Origin: a virus
IMG/VR virus record: IMGVR_UViG_3300017731_000086
Coordinates: 1 to 20,319 of that record
DNA length: 20,319 nt
Direction: 5' to 3' (one strand)
The position numbers were made by a program, and so were the translations under genes. Every line of letters starts with the position of its first letter. Within the stretch, counting starts at the first letter, position 1. Below are positions 14,416 through 19,914 of this stretch, in pieces. The notes below the pieces were generated by a model that was not told where the DNA came from, ran no database searches, and saw only the letters and a program-made list of their open reading frames with translations.

Positions 14416-14837
14416 TGCTTGCTGATACAGAAGTTAATATAGGTGGCACCAAACTTAAAGGTGTGTGGATTGCCATAGTGCTGACGATAGGTACTTCGAT
14501 AGGGGGTACTGTATGGACAGCCAGTAGTTTGTATTCAAGGCTAGAGACTGTAGAGGCTATACAGATACCTGATACATCAGAGATGCAAGAGCAGTTAGTA
14601 GGTTTAGGAAGTAACCTAGAGACTATCATGGAGCGTCAGAAAGAGTTGATAGCTTTGCAGGAAAGAGTAGTCGATGTTGAGAAGCTAGTCACAGAGATGC
14701 AGGTAACTGTAGAAAAAGCTAAGATAGCCACAGAGAATAGTGATAAGATACAGGGTAGGCTAGATAAGATTGATAAAGAAATAGATAGTATCTGGCAAGG
14801 CATGGACTACCTATCAAATCCGTATCGAGGTGAATAA
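14415..14837 (+). CDS. Membrane-anchored coiled-coil protein, possible spanin-like lysis protein
   Basis: This 140-residue protein starts with GTG at 14415, overlapping the previous stop (TAGTG). GAGGA lies 6 nt upstream. It has one membrane segment near the N-terminus (about 17-37, GVWIAIVLTIGTSIGGTVW) and then a long heptad-rich helix (about 40-132) rich in Glu, Lys and Gln. An N-terminal anchor with a long periplasmic coiled coil beside an endolysin gene is the shape of an inner-membrane (Rz-like) spanin. No sequence motif confirms this, and no classical outer-membrane Rz1 partner is seen, although the exported protein just upstream is a candidate. The stop overlaps the peptidase ATG. Confidence 0.5.
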   Translation: MLADTEVNIGGTKLKGVWIAIVLTIGTSIGGTVWTASSLYSRLETVEAIQIPDTSEMQEQLVGLGSNLETIMERQKELIALQERVVDVEKLVTEMQVTVEKAKIATENSDKIQGRLDKIDKEIDSIWQGMDYLSNPYRGE

Positions 14838-15181
14838 TGTTTAAGTATTTTAAGCTGAGTGAGTTTGACTGTCAGTGTACTGGCAACAATGAGATGAAAG
14901 AAGAGTTCATCCACAAGCTAGATGAGTTGCGTGAAGCATGTGGGTTTAGCTTTAACATTACTTCTGGTTATAGAGACCCATCACATCCTATCGAGGCTCG
15001 TAAATCTAAGCCCGGAACACACGCACAGGGTATAGCGGCAGACATAGCTGTAGCTAATGGTGCAGAGAGATACAAGATTGTTAGTGAGGCTATGCGTCTA
15101 GGGTTTACTGGAGTAGGTGTTGCTAAGACATTCATCCATGTGGACATCCGAGAAACTACACCAGTGGTCTGGCAATACTAG
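14837..15181 (+). CDS. M15-family peptidase, phage endolysin
   Basis: This 114-residue protein matches the Peptidase M15 (D-Ala-D-Ala carboxypeptidase-like) fold used by many phage endolysins to cut peptide cross-links in peptidoglycan. Visible motifs are the N-terminal YFKLSEFDCQC, SGYRD (43-47), GTHAQGIAADI with zinc ligands H62 and D69, and FIHVDIR with H101. There is no signal peptide, so it should need the upstream holin to reach its substrate. The start is ATG in a TAATG overlap. It is the last gene of the rightward late block; its TAG stop overlaps the TAG stop of the convergent gene on the other strand. Confidence 0.85.
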   Translation: MFKYFKLSEFDCQCTGNNEMKEEFIHKLDELREACGFSFNITSGYRDPSHPIEARKSKPGTHAQGIAADIAVANGAERYKIVSEAMRLGFTGVGVAKTFIHVDIRETTPVVWQY

Positions 15182-15435
15182 GCTAGTAAAGACTTACGTC
15201 TAGTTTTCTTTTTAATCTTCTTAGGTTGAGAGCTGTACTGTTTACCTGCGGCAGTATCTCTTCTTTTTTTTGCGGATGTGGCGGCATACTCTTGAGGGCT
15301 GAGTGCCTGTCTTGCTTTTCTAGGCAGGTATCTTTCCCCTGTAGCCTTTGAACCCTGAGTGCTAGGCTTCCCTGATTTAGTTCCCCAGTCCTGTTTAGTC
15401 CACTGTTTTAGGCTTCGCTGTGATTTAGCAAGCAT
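15178..15435 (-). CDS. Small basic protein (85 aa) with KSQRSLKQWTKQ start
   Basis: This 85-residue protein is very rich in Lys and Arg. It has the recognisable block KSQRSLKQWTKQDWGTKSGK, then TGERYLPRKARQALSPQEYA and a basic tail (QPKKIKKKTRRKS). I recall near-identical patterns in many marine phage genomes, always as small proteins of unknown function. The ATG at 15435 shares a base with the stop of the preceding tiny gene (TAATG on this strand). Charge and small size suggest nucleic-acid binding or packing in the virion, but nothing in the sequence proves that. Confidence 0.65.
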   Translation of the reverse strand: MLAKSQRSLKQWTKQDWGTKSGKPSTQGSKATGERYLPRKARQALSPQEYAATSAKKRRDTAAGKQYSSQPKKIKKKTRRKSLLA

Positions 15436-15599
15436 TACTTGTACCCACCGCCCTTAGCTTTGTACATACGAGCAAGCATCTGCGCCTTACGCGCTGACCA
15501 TTGTCCTGCTCTACCACCCTTGCCGCCTGCTTTGATTCTGTTAAACAGGTTCTTACGCATGGTTGGCTTGGTATAATTACCTGCCGCGTTTACTGCCAT
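15435..15599 (-). CDS. Tiny basic protein (54 aa), MAVNAAGNYTKP type
   Basis: A 54-codon frame reads MAVNAAGNYTKPTMRKNLFN, then RIKAGGKGGRAGQWSARKAQ and ends KGGGYK. The GQWSARKAQ-L-A-YK-GGGYK pattern is one I recall as conserved among marine phages, which supports it as a real gene despite its length. TAGGA lies 8 nt before the ATG. It overlaps the preceding 34-aa gene by 23 nt in another frame and is coupled to the following 85-aa gene through TAATG. Strongly basic; function unknown. Confidence 0.65.
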   Translation of the reverse strand: MAVNAAGNYTKPTMRKNLFNRIKAGGKGGRAGQWSARKAQMLARMYKAKGGGYK

Positions 15600-15681
15600 T
15601 GCCCATTCCTAGTAATGACTTCTTCTTTTTCTTGGGCGGTCTTCCCACCTTAGAACCGTATGTACCTTTACCGTATGGCAT
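15577..15681 (-). CDS. Tiny basic protein (34 aa), MPYGKGTYGSK type
   Basis: A 34-codon frame reads MPYGKGTYGSKVGRPPKKKK and ends GNGSKRGR. A strong ribosome site (TAGGAGATAAAC before ATG) is built from the stop codon of the upstream gene, supporting translation. The MPYGKGTYGSK start is a pattern I recall from other marine phages. It consists almost entirely of Gly, Lys, Arg, Pro and Tyr and is probably disordered; nucleic-acid binding or a minor capsid or core role is a guess. Confidence 0.6.
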   Translation of the reverse strand: MPYGKGTYGSKVGRPPKKKKKSLLGMGNGSKRGR

Positions 15682-15690
15682 GTTTATCTC

Positions 15691-15966
15691 CTACCATTTA
15701 ACTTTGTTTGCCCAATATGCCGCAGACATCTTACCTTTAGCGATGTTTTTAGCATGGCGAGCTTTGAATGATTTGCGTCTAGCCTTATCTTTAGCGGTCA
15801 TTGGCTTCTTTCCTGCACCACGAACACCTTGCTGTCCAAACCTTATAGTCTTTACTTTGTCACCCTCTTTCGCCACGACCACATGGGACTTGGTTGGGTG
15901 TTTGGGAGTGCGCTTAGGTTTGTTATAACCTGATACGCCAATACGTTTTAATAGGGACTTAGACAT
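15691..15966 (-). CDS. Small basic protein (91 aa) with GVSGYNKPKRTP motif
   Basis: This 91-residue protein starts SKSLLKRIGVSGYNKPKRTP, followed by HPTKSHVVVAKEGDKVKTI, IRFGQQGV and KARRKSFKARHAKNIAKG, and ends SAAYWANKVKW. I recall this as a frequent marine-phage family (DUF6321-like, from memory). I chose ATG 15966, where the family sequence begins; an in-frame upstream extension to 16026 would run through a terminator hairpin. There is no usable Shine-Dalgarno: AGGG sits only 2 nt from the ATG. Instead a TGGTATAAT element places the predicted transcription start on the ATG itself. First gene of a four-gene basic cluster; function unknown. Confidence 0.7.
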   Translation of the reverse strand: MSKSLLKRIGVSGYNKPKRTPKHPTKSHVVVAKEGDKVKTIRFGQQGVRGAGKKPMTAKDKARRKSFKARHAKNIAKGKMSAAYWANKVKW

Positions 15967-15981
15967 TGCCCTATTATACCA
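15967..15981 (-). promoter_or_regulatory. Extended -10 promoter for a possibly leaderless mRNA
   Basis: On the - strand the sequence reads TGGTATAATAGGGCA followed directly by the ATG at 15966. TGGTATAAT is a perfect extended -10 element (TGnTATAAT), which does not require a -35 box. Six bases separate TATAAT from the A of the ATG, so the usual start site would be that A. The T-tract of the upstream terminator abuts it. Read from sequence only. Confidence 0.5.
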
Positions 15982-16006
15982 AAAAAAAGCCCCAAATACA
16001 TGGGGC
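15981..16006 (-). terminator. Intrinsic terminator of the leftward early operon
   Basis: On the - strand, GCCCCA, a 6 nt loop (TGTATT) and TGGGGC form a perfect 6 bp stem, followed at once by eight T residues. It lies 39 bases beyond the stop of the last gene of the leftward replication/recombination operon (16045) and just before the basic-protein cluster. It should separate the two transcripts. Confidence 0.85.
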
Positions 16007-16044: not shown

Positions 16045-16284
16045 CTATTCTATATCAAACATCTCAGGATGTTCAAGACTTAATTGTTCTTCCGTGGGTG
16101 GCTCCATGTGTTCTGCGACAGATTCTTCAACTTTATCCCACAGGTCTATTATCTGCTTTCTCGCATAACCACTTGCATTGCGGTACACAGCCGCAGTTAA
16201 TACGTTGATTAACTCTTCGCGTATATCAGTTAATCCATACTGGTCTATCTTGTCAAACATGATTCCTAATATCTCATCTTCCAT
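16045..16284 (-). CDS. Small acidic protein of unknown function
   Basis: This is a 79-residue acidic, largely helical protein (MEDEILGIMFDKIDQYGLTD; tail EEQLSLEHPEMFDIE). GAGGTG lies upstream of the ATG and the gene follows the HNH gene by 8 nt, so it is probably the last gene of the leftward operon before the terminator at 15981-16006. There is no motif, membrane segment or signal peptide. I do not recognise a family. Confidence 0.5.
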   Translation of the reverse strand: MEDEILGIMFDKIDQYGLTDIREELINVLTAAVYRNASGYARKQIIDLWDKVEESVAEHMEPPTEEQLSLEHPEMFDIE

Positions 16285-16292
16285 AGCACACC

Positions 16293-16682
16293 TCAGTTAT
16301 AACTTACTGGTTCATAGTTTTCATCTTGATCCATCTTCTTAAATTCTTCCCTGTAATGTTTTGCTATTTCTTTTCTTAACTGCTTGTTGGTCTTCATCAG
16401 GACTTGCCACTTCTCTCTCAGCATATCCATGTGTCCCTCGCCTAAAGTCTCTTCCAACCACGCTGTAAACTCCAGTGGGTTAGCAGTGAACTGCATGTGA
16501 CAGTAATGACACAGACATACTGCATTGTCCATTGACCACCTAACTGACTTAGCCGCCCTTCCATAGATGTGAGCGCACTCCATCCTGCCTTCTACTTTTC
16601 CACAGCTTTCACACACATGACCTGCTTTCTTCCTAACTACATCACTAAACCACTTGTCTGCCGCATCACGTTTTATTGCCAT
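16293..16682 (-). CDS. HNH-type nuclease
   Basis: This 129-residue protein contains a clear HNH fold: C24-x2-C27 (HVCESCGK), ECAHIYGR with H38, then DNAVCLCHYCHMQF with N53, C58, C61 and H62. The zinc knuckles and the His-Asn-His order are intact. I chose ATG 16682 (AAAGGA 8 nt upstream) over an upstream ATG at 16712. It overlaps the NinB-like gene by 17 nt. In lambda the ninB-ninG pair encodes recombination functions, so this protein may act as a junction or branch nuclease, but it could equally be a packaging-associated or homing-type HNH enzyme. Only the nuclease fold is well supported. Confidence 0.75.
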   Translation of the reverse strand: MAIKRDAADKWFSDVVRKKAGHVCESCGKVEGRMECAHIYGRAAKSVRWSMDNAVCLCHYCHMQFTANPLEFTAWLEETLGEGHMDMLREKWQVLMKTNKQLRKEIAKHYREEFKKMDQDENYEPVSYN

Positions 16683-17109
16683 TCTTAAAATCCTTTGTAG
16701 GGAATGTAACATAAAGTTTGTACTTCTCTGCTAAGTGTCTTGTTATTGTTTCAGCTACTAACGATACTTCATCTGTTGATAACTGCCTACTACTTTCATC
16801 CTTCTCAGGATACATAGCGCGCTGTACTGTCATCCATATCAAGTCCATTACACTGCGGTCAGTCCACGGTGCTTCAATATCTTTTGTTAGAACAGGACTG
16901 CTTATCATGCAAGGAAACCCTGCATCATTGCACCGCTTGGCTATCTCCTTACAGAATACCCACATAGCATTGTTTTGCTTAATACTTCTAGGCTTACCTA
17001 GCTTGTATTCAAACGTAATGTACTTATGCTTCTCATACATTTGCTCGACAAATTCTTTATACATTGTGAGTTTCTTGGGACAGTTGACAGTCCAAGCGGC
17101 ACCATTCAT
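16666..17109 (-). CDS. NinB-like recombination protein
   Basis: This 147-residue protein has the NinB/Orf-type layout: an N-terminal beta strand pair (MYKEFVEQMYEKHKYITFEY), KPRSIKQNNAMWVFCKEIAK (39-58), a DRSVMDLIWMTVQRAMYP helix and STDEVSLVAETITRHLAEKY (111-130). Lambda Orf (NinB) binds single-stranded DNA and SSB and helps load recombination proteins. The RS-KQNN motif and the Thr-x-Glu/Asp helix near the end are the strongest clues. ATG 17109 overlaps the upstream stop (ATGA); a second ATG at 17064 is possible. The HNH gene follows. The family call is by eye. Confidence 0.65.
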   Translation of the reverse strand: MNGAAWTVNCPKKLTMYKEFVEQMYEKHKYITFEYKLGKPRSIKQNNAMWVFCKEIAKRCNDAGFPCMISSPVLTKDIEAPWTDRSVMDLIWMTVQRAMYPEKDESSRQLSTDEVSLVAETITRHLAEKYKLYVTFPTKDFKNGNKT

Positions 17110-17667: not shown

Positions 17668-18405
17668 CTAAAAAAGTTTGGCTTGTTGCCATTCGCATGT
17701 GAACCCGCAATCAGCAGGCATATCATCTTTGAACCTTCCCCTATTTGGATCTAGCTCATCTAAAAAAACTGCACCAATCTTATCTTTGTTGATAGCGTGT
17801 CCTATCTCTCTCTCTAAGTTAGCCATTCTATCAAAAGCATCTGGGAAATCTTTGCGTATCTTGTTCCAGTAACCCATGCCACCTTTAACACATCCTATGC
17901 AGTTGTTGTTATTGTATCCAAGTTTATACATTGCAGGTATTTCTATCTTCATATCCTTCACAAACTCAATGCAATCTTGCTTGGTATACCCTTGCTCCAT
18001 GAGTATAAAGTCAACGTCAACATCATTATTAGAATCTATGAATCTATTTGCCCTAGACTCTTCTTCTACTGTGTATCCAAATACCTGTATATCAGTTGGC
18101 TGTTGGTAGTCCTTTCTTACATTTTTCTTTAAAATCATAGTGCAAGGCGCACCAGTCTGACCTTTTATGAACTTTCTATCTCTAAACACCTTGTAGATAG
18201 AGAAGTCTTTTCGCTCATCGCCAATAATCTTTACTGGCAGTTCGCATTTGTCTGCGTATTCATTAAGAAATCTAAGGTTATCCTCATGCTCCTCTGCAAC
18301 TCGACAGTAAACTGCTTCAAACTTTTCTTCCTTGTACTTTTCTTTGGCTAGGTATGTGGCGAATGCGCTTGCCGCCCCACAGCTAAACCACGATACAACT
18401 CTCAT
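17668..18405 (-). CDS. PAPS-reductase-like / PP-loop ATPase family protein
   Basis: This 245-residue protein belongs to the adenine-nucleotide alpha-hydrolase (PP-loop) group. The N-terminal strand and loop RVVSWFSCGAASAFATYLA (2-20) is a variant of the SGGxDS pyrophosphate-binding loop. TGAPCTMILKK (84-94) and VFGYTVEEESRANRF (108-122) are typical of phage PAPS-reductase-like proteins, and NNCIGCVKGGMGYW (167-180) has a Cys-x-x-Cys pair (C169, C172) near C88. Two more cysteines (C233, C237) lie at the C-terminus. The cluster suggests a metal or Fe-S site. Phage members have no settled substrate; sulfur transfer or base/nucleotide modification is possible. It sits between the replication initiator and small HTH genes. 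Confidence 0.75.
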   Translation of the reverse strand: MRVVSWFSCGAASAFATYLAKEKYKEEKFEAVYCRVAEEHEDNLRFLNEYADKCELPVKIIGDERKDFSIYKVFRDRKFIKGQTGAPCTMILKKNVRKDYQQPTDIQVFGYTVEEESRANRFIDSNNDVDVDFILMEQGYTKQDCIEFVKDMKIEIPAMYKLGYNNNNCIGCVKGGMGYWNKIRKDFPDAFDRMANLEREIGHAINKDKIGAVFLDELDPNRGRFKDDMPADCGFTCEWQQAKLF

Positions 18406-18422: not shown

Positions 18423-19133
18423 CTAGTTAGCCCATGATCTATCAGTCAACGCTACTTCAATATCGCGCTTCTTGATTTGTGCGGGCTGTTTGATTTGTGT
18501 AACTACCTTTTGTTCAACTTCATCTTCCCACCTTGCATTGTTTAGATAGGTTGACGCATGAGGAATGAATGTTTTGTTAGCATCACTCCACTCGCCATGT
18601 TTAATCCTCAATGCAATGTTCTCAGCTATCATCTTTACAGTATCGTCATTTAGTTTGAGTTTATCCCATGCTTTCCTGGCTTGTGCCTTGCCAACCTTTC
18701 TTGGGTAAACAGTCCAGAATGATTCAAAATGATCTATATTATTAACTGTAATATTAGATGTAGTATTAACTGTATTATTATCCTTAAACTTTTCTTTAAT
18801 ACCCCCATTAACTTTTCTTTGTGGGGTATTTAACTTTTCTTTAATAGGGTCATTAACTAATCTTATATACCTATTTAAGATTTGTTTAGTACCCCCATCC
18901 TGCTCTAGCTCAATGCTGACGTAGCCTGCGTCTTTAAGGCTACCTATCCATTTACTGATAGATACCTTGCTGACGTTATATAGTTCTGCAAAGTATCCGT
19001 TAGTTGCCCAACAATATCCTTTCTCATTGCAAAGTGCAGTGATCTCACCATATAAAAGTTTGGCGTTAGGTGTTAGACTCTCATCGTATCTGACGTTAGC
19101 AGGGATGATTGCGTAGTAACCTTTCTTATTCAT
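18423..19133 (-). CDS. Replication initiator with HTH domain (lambda O / DnaD-like arrangement)
   Basis: This 236-residue protein has three parts. Residues 1-80 contain a winged helix (LTPNAKLLYGEITALCNEKG, WATNGYFAELYNVSKVSISK, LKDAGYVSIE), as in phage replication proteins. Residues about 81-135 are a low-complexity Asn/Thr/Lys linker. Residues 136-205 carry the C-terminal module FWTVYPRKVGKAQARKAW, then FIPHASTYLNNARWEDE, seen in many phage initiators and helicase loaders. The DNA for the linker holds the repeats described separately, an arrangement like lambda gene O. The ATG at 19133 has AGGAG 7 nt upstream and overlaps the methyltransferase stop by 8 nt. No helicase or polymerase gene is in view, so it likely recruits the host replisome. 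Confidence 0.75.
   Translation of the reverse strand: MNKKGYYAIIPANVRYDESLTPNAKLLYGEITALCNEKGYCWATNGYFAELYNVSKVSISKWIGSLKDAGYVSIELEQDGGTKQILNRYIRLVNDPIKEKLNTPQRKVNGGIKEKFKDNNTVNTTSNITVNNIDHFESFWTVYPRKVGKAQARKAWDKLKLNDDTVKMIAENIALRIKHGEWSDANKTFIPHASTYLNNARWEDEVEQKVVTQIKQPAQIKKRDIEVALTDRSWAN
18733..18898. other. Putative replication origin inside the initiator gene
   Basis: The iteron array (18784-18898) is followed, in the direction of the gene, by a stretch of nearly pure A/T (18733-18783, for example TATTATTAACTGTAATATTA) suitable as an unwinding element. The order within the gene is N-terminal domain, iterons, AT-rich DNA, C-terminal domain, the same as lambda ori in gene O. AATACCCC (18798-18805) and GGGGTATT (18823-18830) form an inverted repeat within the array. 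Origin function is inferred from structure and analogy. Confidence 0.6.
18742..18898. repeat. Iteron-like direct repeats with 22-23 bp period
   Basis: On the + strand, units beginning TTAA(A)CTTTTCTTT-TA recur. Their AAC/AAG cores start at 18787, 18810, 18832, 18855 and 18877 (spacings 23, 22, 23, 22). The first three share AACTTTTCTTT exactly. The fifth (AAGATTTGTTTAGTACCCCC) matches the first in 18 of 22 positions by my count. Two weaker TTAACT units follow at 18742 and 18766. Spacing of about two helical turns is typical of initiator-binding iterons. Confidence 0.7.
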
Positions 19134-19914
19134 TTGCCGCTCCTTGTTGTAATCCTTTGAAAATATGCGAAATCACATCTACAGTCCATCCATTGCCTAT
19201 CATTTTATATCTTTGCGTGTTCGATACACCGTCAGTATAATTTTTTGGAATTGACTGTAGCGTTTCACAGTCTGTAGGTGTTAATTTATCTTTTAAGTCT
19301 TTTGATTTTAAAGGCACATTATGACCACCTGTACCCATATTAGCTGTCAAGCATGGGCTAACGCCAGACTTATTCTCTCTAAAATATGTTCTTCTCCATT
19401 GATAAAAGTTACCTGACCAATCTGGTCTTTCTGGCAAAGACTCTAAAGGTATATTTGTCCAATAAAGTCTTTCTCTATTTTGTTGTACAAAAAGATCACT
19501 GTTAATTAATATTGGATTAACACCTAAAATCTCACTAATAACATCTTGTGATTCTTGCTTCATTTTTACATTTTCTAAAAGAAAGTATTTAGGATTACAC
19601 TCTTTAACTAGTCGAGCGTATTCAAAAAATAGTTTTGATCTTGGGTCATCGAAGTTAAGTCTTTTACCTGCATAGCTGAACCCCTGACAAGGTGAGCCAC
19701 CCATGATTAAATCAATCTTAATACCATCTAATGATTCAGGGTACATAATATCTTGTACATCTCCTAAATGGATGGTGTCTGGATAATTTTGTTTAGCTAC
19801 TTGGATGGCGTGTTTATCTATCTCAGATGCAAAGTATTTGCCAACCTCGATCCCCGCTCTTTCGAGTGCGATTCTTCCGCAGCTCATGCCATCAAACAAA
19901 CTTAAAACATTCAT
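19126..19914 (-). CDS. C5 cytosine DNA methyltransferase (orphan)
   Basis: This 262-residue protein contains the ordered motifs of C5 cytosine methyltransferases. Motif I is LSLFDGMSCG (4-13, AdoMet binding), and SEIDKHA is at 30-36. Motif IV is GGSPCQGFS with catalytic C76, motif VI is LENVK with E114, and motif VIII is QNRERLYW (145-152). A short target-recognition region spans about 160-210, then LTPTDCETLQ (211-220) and motif X GNGWTVDVI (241-249). The FDGMSCG form resembles phage DNMT3-like enzymes. It is complete, with no restriction endonuclease beside it, so self-protection against host restriction or gene regulation is more likely than a full R-M system. The target site cannot be read from sequence. 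It overlaps the initiator gene by 8 nt. Confidence 0.9.
   Translation of the reverse strand: MNVLSLFDGMSCGRIALERAGIEVGKYFASEIDKHAIQVAKQNYPDTIHLGDVQDIMYPESLDGIKIDLIMGGSPCQGFSYAGKRLNFDDPRSKLFFEYARLVKECNPKYFLLENVKMKQESQDVISEILGVNPILINSDLFVQQNRERLYWTNIPLESLPERPDWSGNFYQWRRTYFRENKSGVSPCLTANMGTGGHNVPLKSKDLKDKLTPTDCETLQSIPKNYTDGVSNTQRYKMIGNGWTVDVISHIFKGLQQGAANE

Follow-up and report, generated by a model that had tools for sequence, protein, structure and literature searches.

A conserved cassette of four small, highly basic genes in marine phages and its probable link to the phage head

The window analysed here, a 20,319-bp fragment of viral DNA with the phage's own TerL and portal genes lying outside it, carries four consecutive minus-strand genes, designated A to D, that touch or overlap one another and run convergently to the lysis genes (Table 1). 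Open reading frame positions and composition agree with the original prediction of a Lys/Arg-rich cluster at this place, and the computed pI values of the four products range from 11.2 to 11.5. A gap of 9 nt separates A from B, B and C overlap by 23 nt, and C and D overlap by a single nucleotide (TAATG); the Shine–Dalgarno sequence of B is strong (AGGAGATAAACATG). Directly upstream of the cassette, at 16293–17109, lie NinG/Rap-like and NinB/Orf-like recombination genes of the lambda type. Further on, reading of the sequence places PAPS reductase-like and DNA methyltransferase-like genes on the minus strand at 17668–18405 and 19126–19914, respectively, and a PAPS reductase is also annotated in phages C72C1 and HTVC034P.

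Table 1. Genes and predicted signals of the cassette and its borders in the window.
Feature	Position	Strand	Description
Gene A	15691..15966	-	91 aa; K+R 27 / D+E 3; phrog_7595
Gene B	15577..15681	-	34 aa; K+R 11 / D+E 0; MPxGKGTYGSxxGRPxK header and Lys-rich tail
Gene C	15435..15599	-	54 aa; K+R 13 / D+E 0; phrog_17747; N-terminal half of DUF5872-like C–D protein
Gene D	15178..15435	-	85 aa; K+R 24 / D+E 4; phrog_14910; C-terminal half of DUF5872-like C–D protein
M15 peptidase/endolysin gene, convergent to the cassette	14837..15181	+	3′ end overlaps D by 4 nt
Acidic 79-aa gene, upstream of the terminator	16045..16284	-	kept in the closest relative (L167)
Extended −10 promoter (predicted), TGGTATAAT	15973..15981	-	6 nt before the ATG of A
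Intrinsic terminator, GCCCC..GGGGC + T8	15981..16006	-	ends the upstream operon; abuts the promoter

All four are real, conserved genes. Full-length PHROG profile matches identify A (phrog_7595, 1e-39), C (phrog_17747, 2.5e-32) and D (phrog_14910, 2.4e-31) as members of families annotated ‘unknown function’, and scans of IMG/VR confirmed at least 594 relatives for each of the three. B has no match in PHROG or Pfam, the Pfam search of A–D returned nothing above the cut-off, and an NCBIfam search likewise returned nothing. Compared with the closest relative, L167, in which the A–B–C–D order is identical, the window genes have dN/dS values (NG86) of 0.038 for A, 0.145 for B, 0.143 for C and 0.039 for D, with zero stops; all four are clearly under purifying selection. 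The two tiny frames, B and C, which had been put forward as genes easily missed, are thus genuine, showing neither a high Ka/Ks nor stops. Relative to a second locus (L031), the header of B carries six synonymous and two non-synonymous differences.

By tblastn, A was found in 48 phage records, C in 16 and D in 17, mostly those of roseophages, HMO-2011, pelagiphages, Methylophilales phages, cobaviruses and cyanosiphoviruses; in SIO1 the region matching A has no annotated feature. The same search with B returned zero matches, low-complexity filtering of its poly-Lys being the probable cause, and relatives of B were gathered by a DNA pattern scan for its header, blind to A, C and D, that yielded at least 120 stretches. 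The cassette is very common in ocean phages, yet its genes are small enough to escape or mislead annotation. Members of the B family share the header given in Table 1 followed by variable Lys-rich tails, and in some cases are joined to further small basic modules, which by eye are phrog_16028-like in L141 and phrog_31838-like in L030. The GRP core of this header resembles an AT-hook, with the window's VGRPP as a non-canonical version: the window protein has V-G-R-P-P in place of the AT-hook core R-G-R-P with its basic flanks, and RGRP is found in some relatives. Since the scan pattern demanded GRP, the frequency of GRP among the stretches it collected carries no evidence.

The four genes are functionally linked, and cassette members are found together in hundreds of marine phage contigs. 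Among the fetched loci, 14 preserve the A–B–C–D order within 2 kb and 61 the order A–C–D, A and C point in the same direction in 112 of 112, and C almost never occurs without D; the loci represent non-independent lineages and were fetched via cassette proteins, so that the presence of one member is ascertained while order and strand are unbiased by this. C and D correspond to the halves of a single protein and are joined in one ORF, a Rosetta-stone fusion, in 30 loci. The original prediction held that the four signature genes travel together in marine phages and share a job. The recurrent co-linear sets bear out the former, and the recurrent order, the strand agreement, the C–D fusion and the purifying selection acting on both tiny frames strongly support the latter.

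Neighbourhood, strand and domain fusions together make it very likely that the cassette is linked to phage head genes. In L031 and L051 the order is TerL, portal, a small gene, A, B, C, D and then scaffold-like and MCP-like genes; L220 has portal, scaffold-like, A, C–D and MCP-like genes, and L011 has TerS, C, D and TerL, where scaffold and MCP labels derive from position and size, and TerL, portal and TerS labels from the PHROG match of the cluster representative. The annotated genome of MEP402 reads C, D, TerL, portal, scaffold, capsid, and CRP-345 and CRP-603 are further phages that support this neighbourhood. Of the 52 A loci flanked by 4 kb or more on each side, 29 have TerL, portal, scaffold or MCP genes within 6 kb of A, all on the same strand, and head genes were not detected within that distance in 23 (fragmentary contigs, limited detection). 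Cassette genes share the strand of TerL in 49 cases and oppose it in three, compared with 161 and 210 for other small genes (Fisher p 2e-13, from 25 mixed-strand TerL loci that are not phylogenetically independent). Of 38 loci from the B scan, 17 have head genes at a distance of up to 2.5 kb, with none on the opposite strand. The head and packaging neighbourhood is thus confirmed in relatives; the window cassette itself lies on the strand opposite to the structural genes, so its position does not imply late timing.

How the window cassette might be expressed is suggested by the junction upstream of A. The terminator–promoter layout in Table 1 recurs in L167, L183 and L095, and the promoter placement is found without a terminator in L090 and L104. 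Because the count of TGnTATAAT is by itself insignificant in the window (three occurrences against 1.8 expected), it is this conserved placement that upholds the earlier claim of an own promoter, which stays a predicted one. Usual spacing would put +1 at the A of the gene A ATG, which predicts a leaderless mRNA. Given that the cassette of L095 likewise lies opposite to TerL, the window clade seems to have taken the cassette out of the late structural operon and placed it last in an operon of the opposite strand.

The AlphaFold2 model of A (pLDDT 92) consists of a helix, a beta hairpin and two helices, and neither sequence nor fold searches of the PDB found a similar solved structure. Among predicted viral structures, it matches with probability 1.00 ICP1 ORF125, one protein annotated as XkdF and another as ChaB, A0A2H4PAR7 (1393 aa, taken from its length to be the CL131 portal polyprotein), and iridovirus and marseillevirus proteins. 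Sequence HMMs locate an A domain C-terminal to Peptidase_S78_2 in ICP1 gp125, N-terminal to Peptidase_S78_2 in gp107 of Aeromonas phage 4L372XY, and between the portal and InPase/MuF domains in CL131 gp12; the reversed domain order in gp125 and gp107 implies independent fusions. These two XkdF-type capsid proteases have the A fold in common with the window protein and occupy a head operon position between portal and scaffold/decoration genes, whereas the window A stands alone, without a protease. ICP1 gp122–126 constitute a late capsid gene cluster (PMC7567579), and CL131 ORF012 was detected by LC-MS/MS in purified virions (PMC6293099), a finding that concerns the A domain specifically inside the CL131 portal polyprotein. 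Designed repeat proteins that phmmer matched to ICP1 gp125 were dismissed as an effect of composition. The A domain may not be head-only, as a weak match to the tail-tube-initiator family PF23980 hints. In the A relatives examined, two Cys residues close to the C-terminus occur as a pair or are missing as a pair, which suggests that some members have a metal site or a disulfide.

A is probably distantly related to Tlr6F/DUF5754, which is found in polinton-like and giant viruses. DUF5754 (PF19058) matches 27 of 50 A relatives, at best with 1.5e-4, and wherever bits were seen the matches fall below the Pfam gathering threshold of 27.4 (15.4 bits for A, 20.9 for the relative L040). With Foldseek, the A model is likened by fold alone to the predicted structures of iridovirus W8QE68 (probability 1.00, E 2.5e-3) and marseillevirus V9SE36 (probability 1.00, E 8.7e-3). 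DUF5754 is the same as Tlr6F (PMC12220804), a protein of unknown function that is conserved across almost all polinton-like viruses and in many giant viruses and is present also in virophages and some phages (PMC4642659). Both A and Tlr6F are small and widespread; A differs in that it is tied to phage head genes and sits in a cluster with B–D. Among the papers searched, none ties Tlr6F or DUF5872 to head proteins, and the fusions of the A domain to capsid protease and portal, together with the head-module cassette, offer a concrete, testable place for Tlr6F.

DUF5872 (PF19197) matches all 14 of the scanned C–D fusion proteins (best 1.8e-6), and a cellular homologue (L522) passes its gathering threshold. 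The window C and D fall below the threshold when each is searched alone; in contrast to DUF5872, the domain is split in the window over two overlapping genes. The model of the C–D fusion (pLDDT 90, pTM 0.59) is mainly helical, and PDB sequence and fold searches found no relatives. Homologues about 55–63% identical over nearly the full length reside on alphaproteobacterial chromosomes, among them those of Methylobacterium, Sphingomonas and Aureimonas. A Rho_N/SAP-type C-terminal tail is carried by about 51 of the 80 homologues fetched (49 by pattern, 2 by eye) and exceeds the Pfam cut-off in one; L499 has a long Lys/Ala/Pro-rich tail instead. Recognisable head genes lie near none of the 23 tailed loci counted first and near six untailed loci, which are phage contigs. 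Phage C–D has a net charge of 0.23 per residue, compared with 0.09 for the cellular core. Genes in the GC-rich cellular contigs were called with GC3 bias. The cellular protein is possibly a nucleoid or stress protein. Cellular C–D genes were seen at about 50 loci (L487–L545, for example L493:5001–5369), including in Microvirga.

The reading that we favour, and consider somewhat probable, is that A–D form a cationic, nucleic-acid-binding cassette for head assembly and packaging whose products are loaded onto or into the prohead. A would dock on the portal, scaffold or inner shell of the prohead, on DNA or on both; B, through its GRP and poly-Lys, and C–D would bind nucleic acid; and the four proteins, jointly loaded, could help to neutralise or organise DNA during packaging. 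In the window phage, they would do so from a relocated cassette with its own terminator–promoter junction, probably through a leaderless mRNA. The original prediction had offered DNA condensation in the virion, RNA binding or host takeover as the shared job, and the first, understood as condensation or packaging in the head, fits best in view of the head-gene neighbourhood, the A-domain fusions, the Rho_N/SAP-like or Lys/Ala/Pro-rich tails and the AT-hook-like B. From this context we infer that stand-alone A–D bind DNA and are present in virions. Packaged internal head proteins such as T4 IPI–III, and protamine-like virion proteins, are small, basic and head-associated; A–D are likened to them by description, with their own presence in the virion presumed.

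Some of the same evidence can be read differently. Late-gene regulators that bind RNA or act on transcription or translation, with phage mRNA, RNA polymerase or ribosomes as their targets and a place beside late genes for timing only, would suit the basic composition by itself, the RNA/DNA-binding type of the Rho_N tails, the location of a Methylobacterium C–D homologue near rplM/rpsI and the independent promoter of the window clade; we nevertheless think this unlikely, since the fusion partners of the A domain are capsid protease and portal–MuF, not RNA polymerase or regulators, and the cassette's placement is specific to the head module. The attachment of A to the protease on both sides and the place of the genes among portal, scaffold and MCP would also agree with assembly factors that are never packaged, A positioning the scaffold, protease or portal, and C–D and B serving as scaffold-like or terminase cofactors, with none kept in the mature head. 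The A-carrying CL131 portal stays in virions, however, and the tails of the cellular C–D homologues point to nucleic acid, which leaves this explanation distinctly unlikely. That A–D serve early in infection to take over the host by binding its nucleoid, RNA polymerase or ribosomes is very improbable and unsupported: the opposite strand and own promoter of the window clade would fit, but most relatives carry the cassette in the head module instead of the early module, and Pfam, PHROG and NCBIfam gave zero host-factor-like similarity.

Returning to the head-packaging reading, a wider form of it can be put forward tentatively, although we judge it more doubtful than not: the A fold may be a common head-interior module of tailed phages, polinton-like viruses and giant viruses, and C–D, with or without Rho_N/SAP, an unrecognised nucleic-acid-organising family of phages, giant viruses and alphaproteobacterial chromosomes, the phage forms being more positive for genome packaging. 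If true, the shared head-interior A module would give Tlr6F a function. The cassette makes a long-standing viral protein family without known function testable, and two of its members appear to reach giant viruses and ordinary bacteria.

Small basic modules lie beside or fused to A, B or D at several loci (L030, L141, L092, L095, L011:7750–8037 and L208) and appear exchangeable, as if taken from a shuffled toolkit; they comprise phrog_16028, phrog_31838, phrog_6437, DUF6321 and LTxKQKxLP tails. D is also seen at the N-terminus of larger Gly-rich proteins of the ‘SDGEFVM’ type (L083:5761–7122 and L038:8841–10091), the L083 protein matching tape-measure PHROGs.
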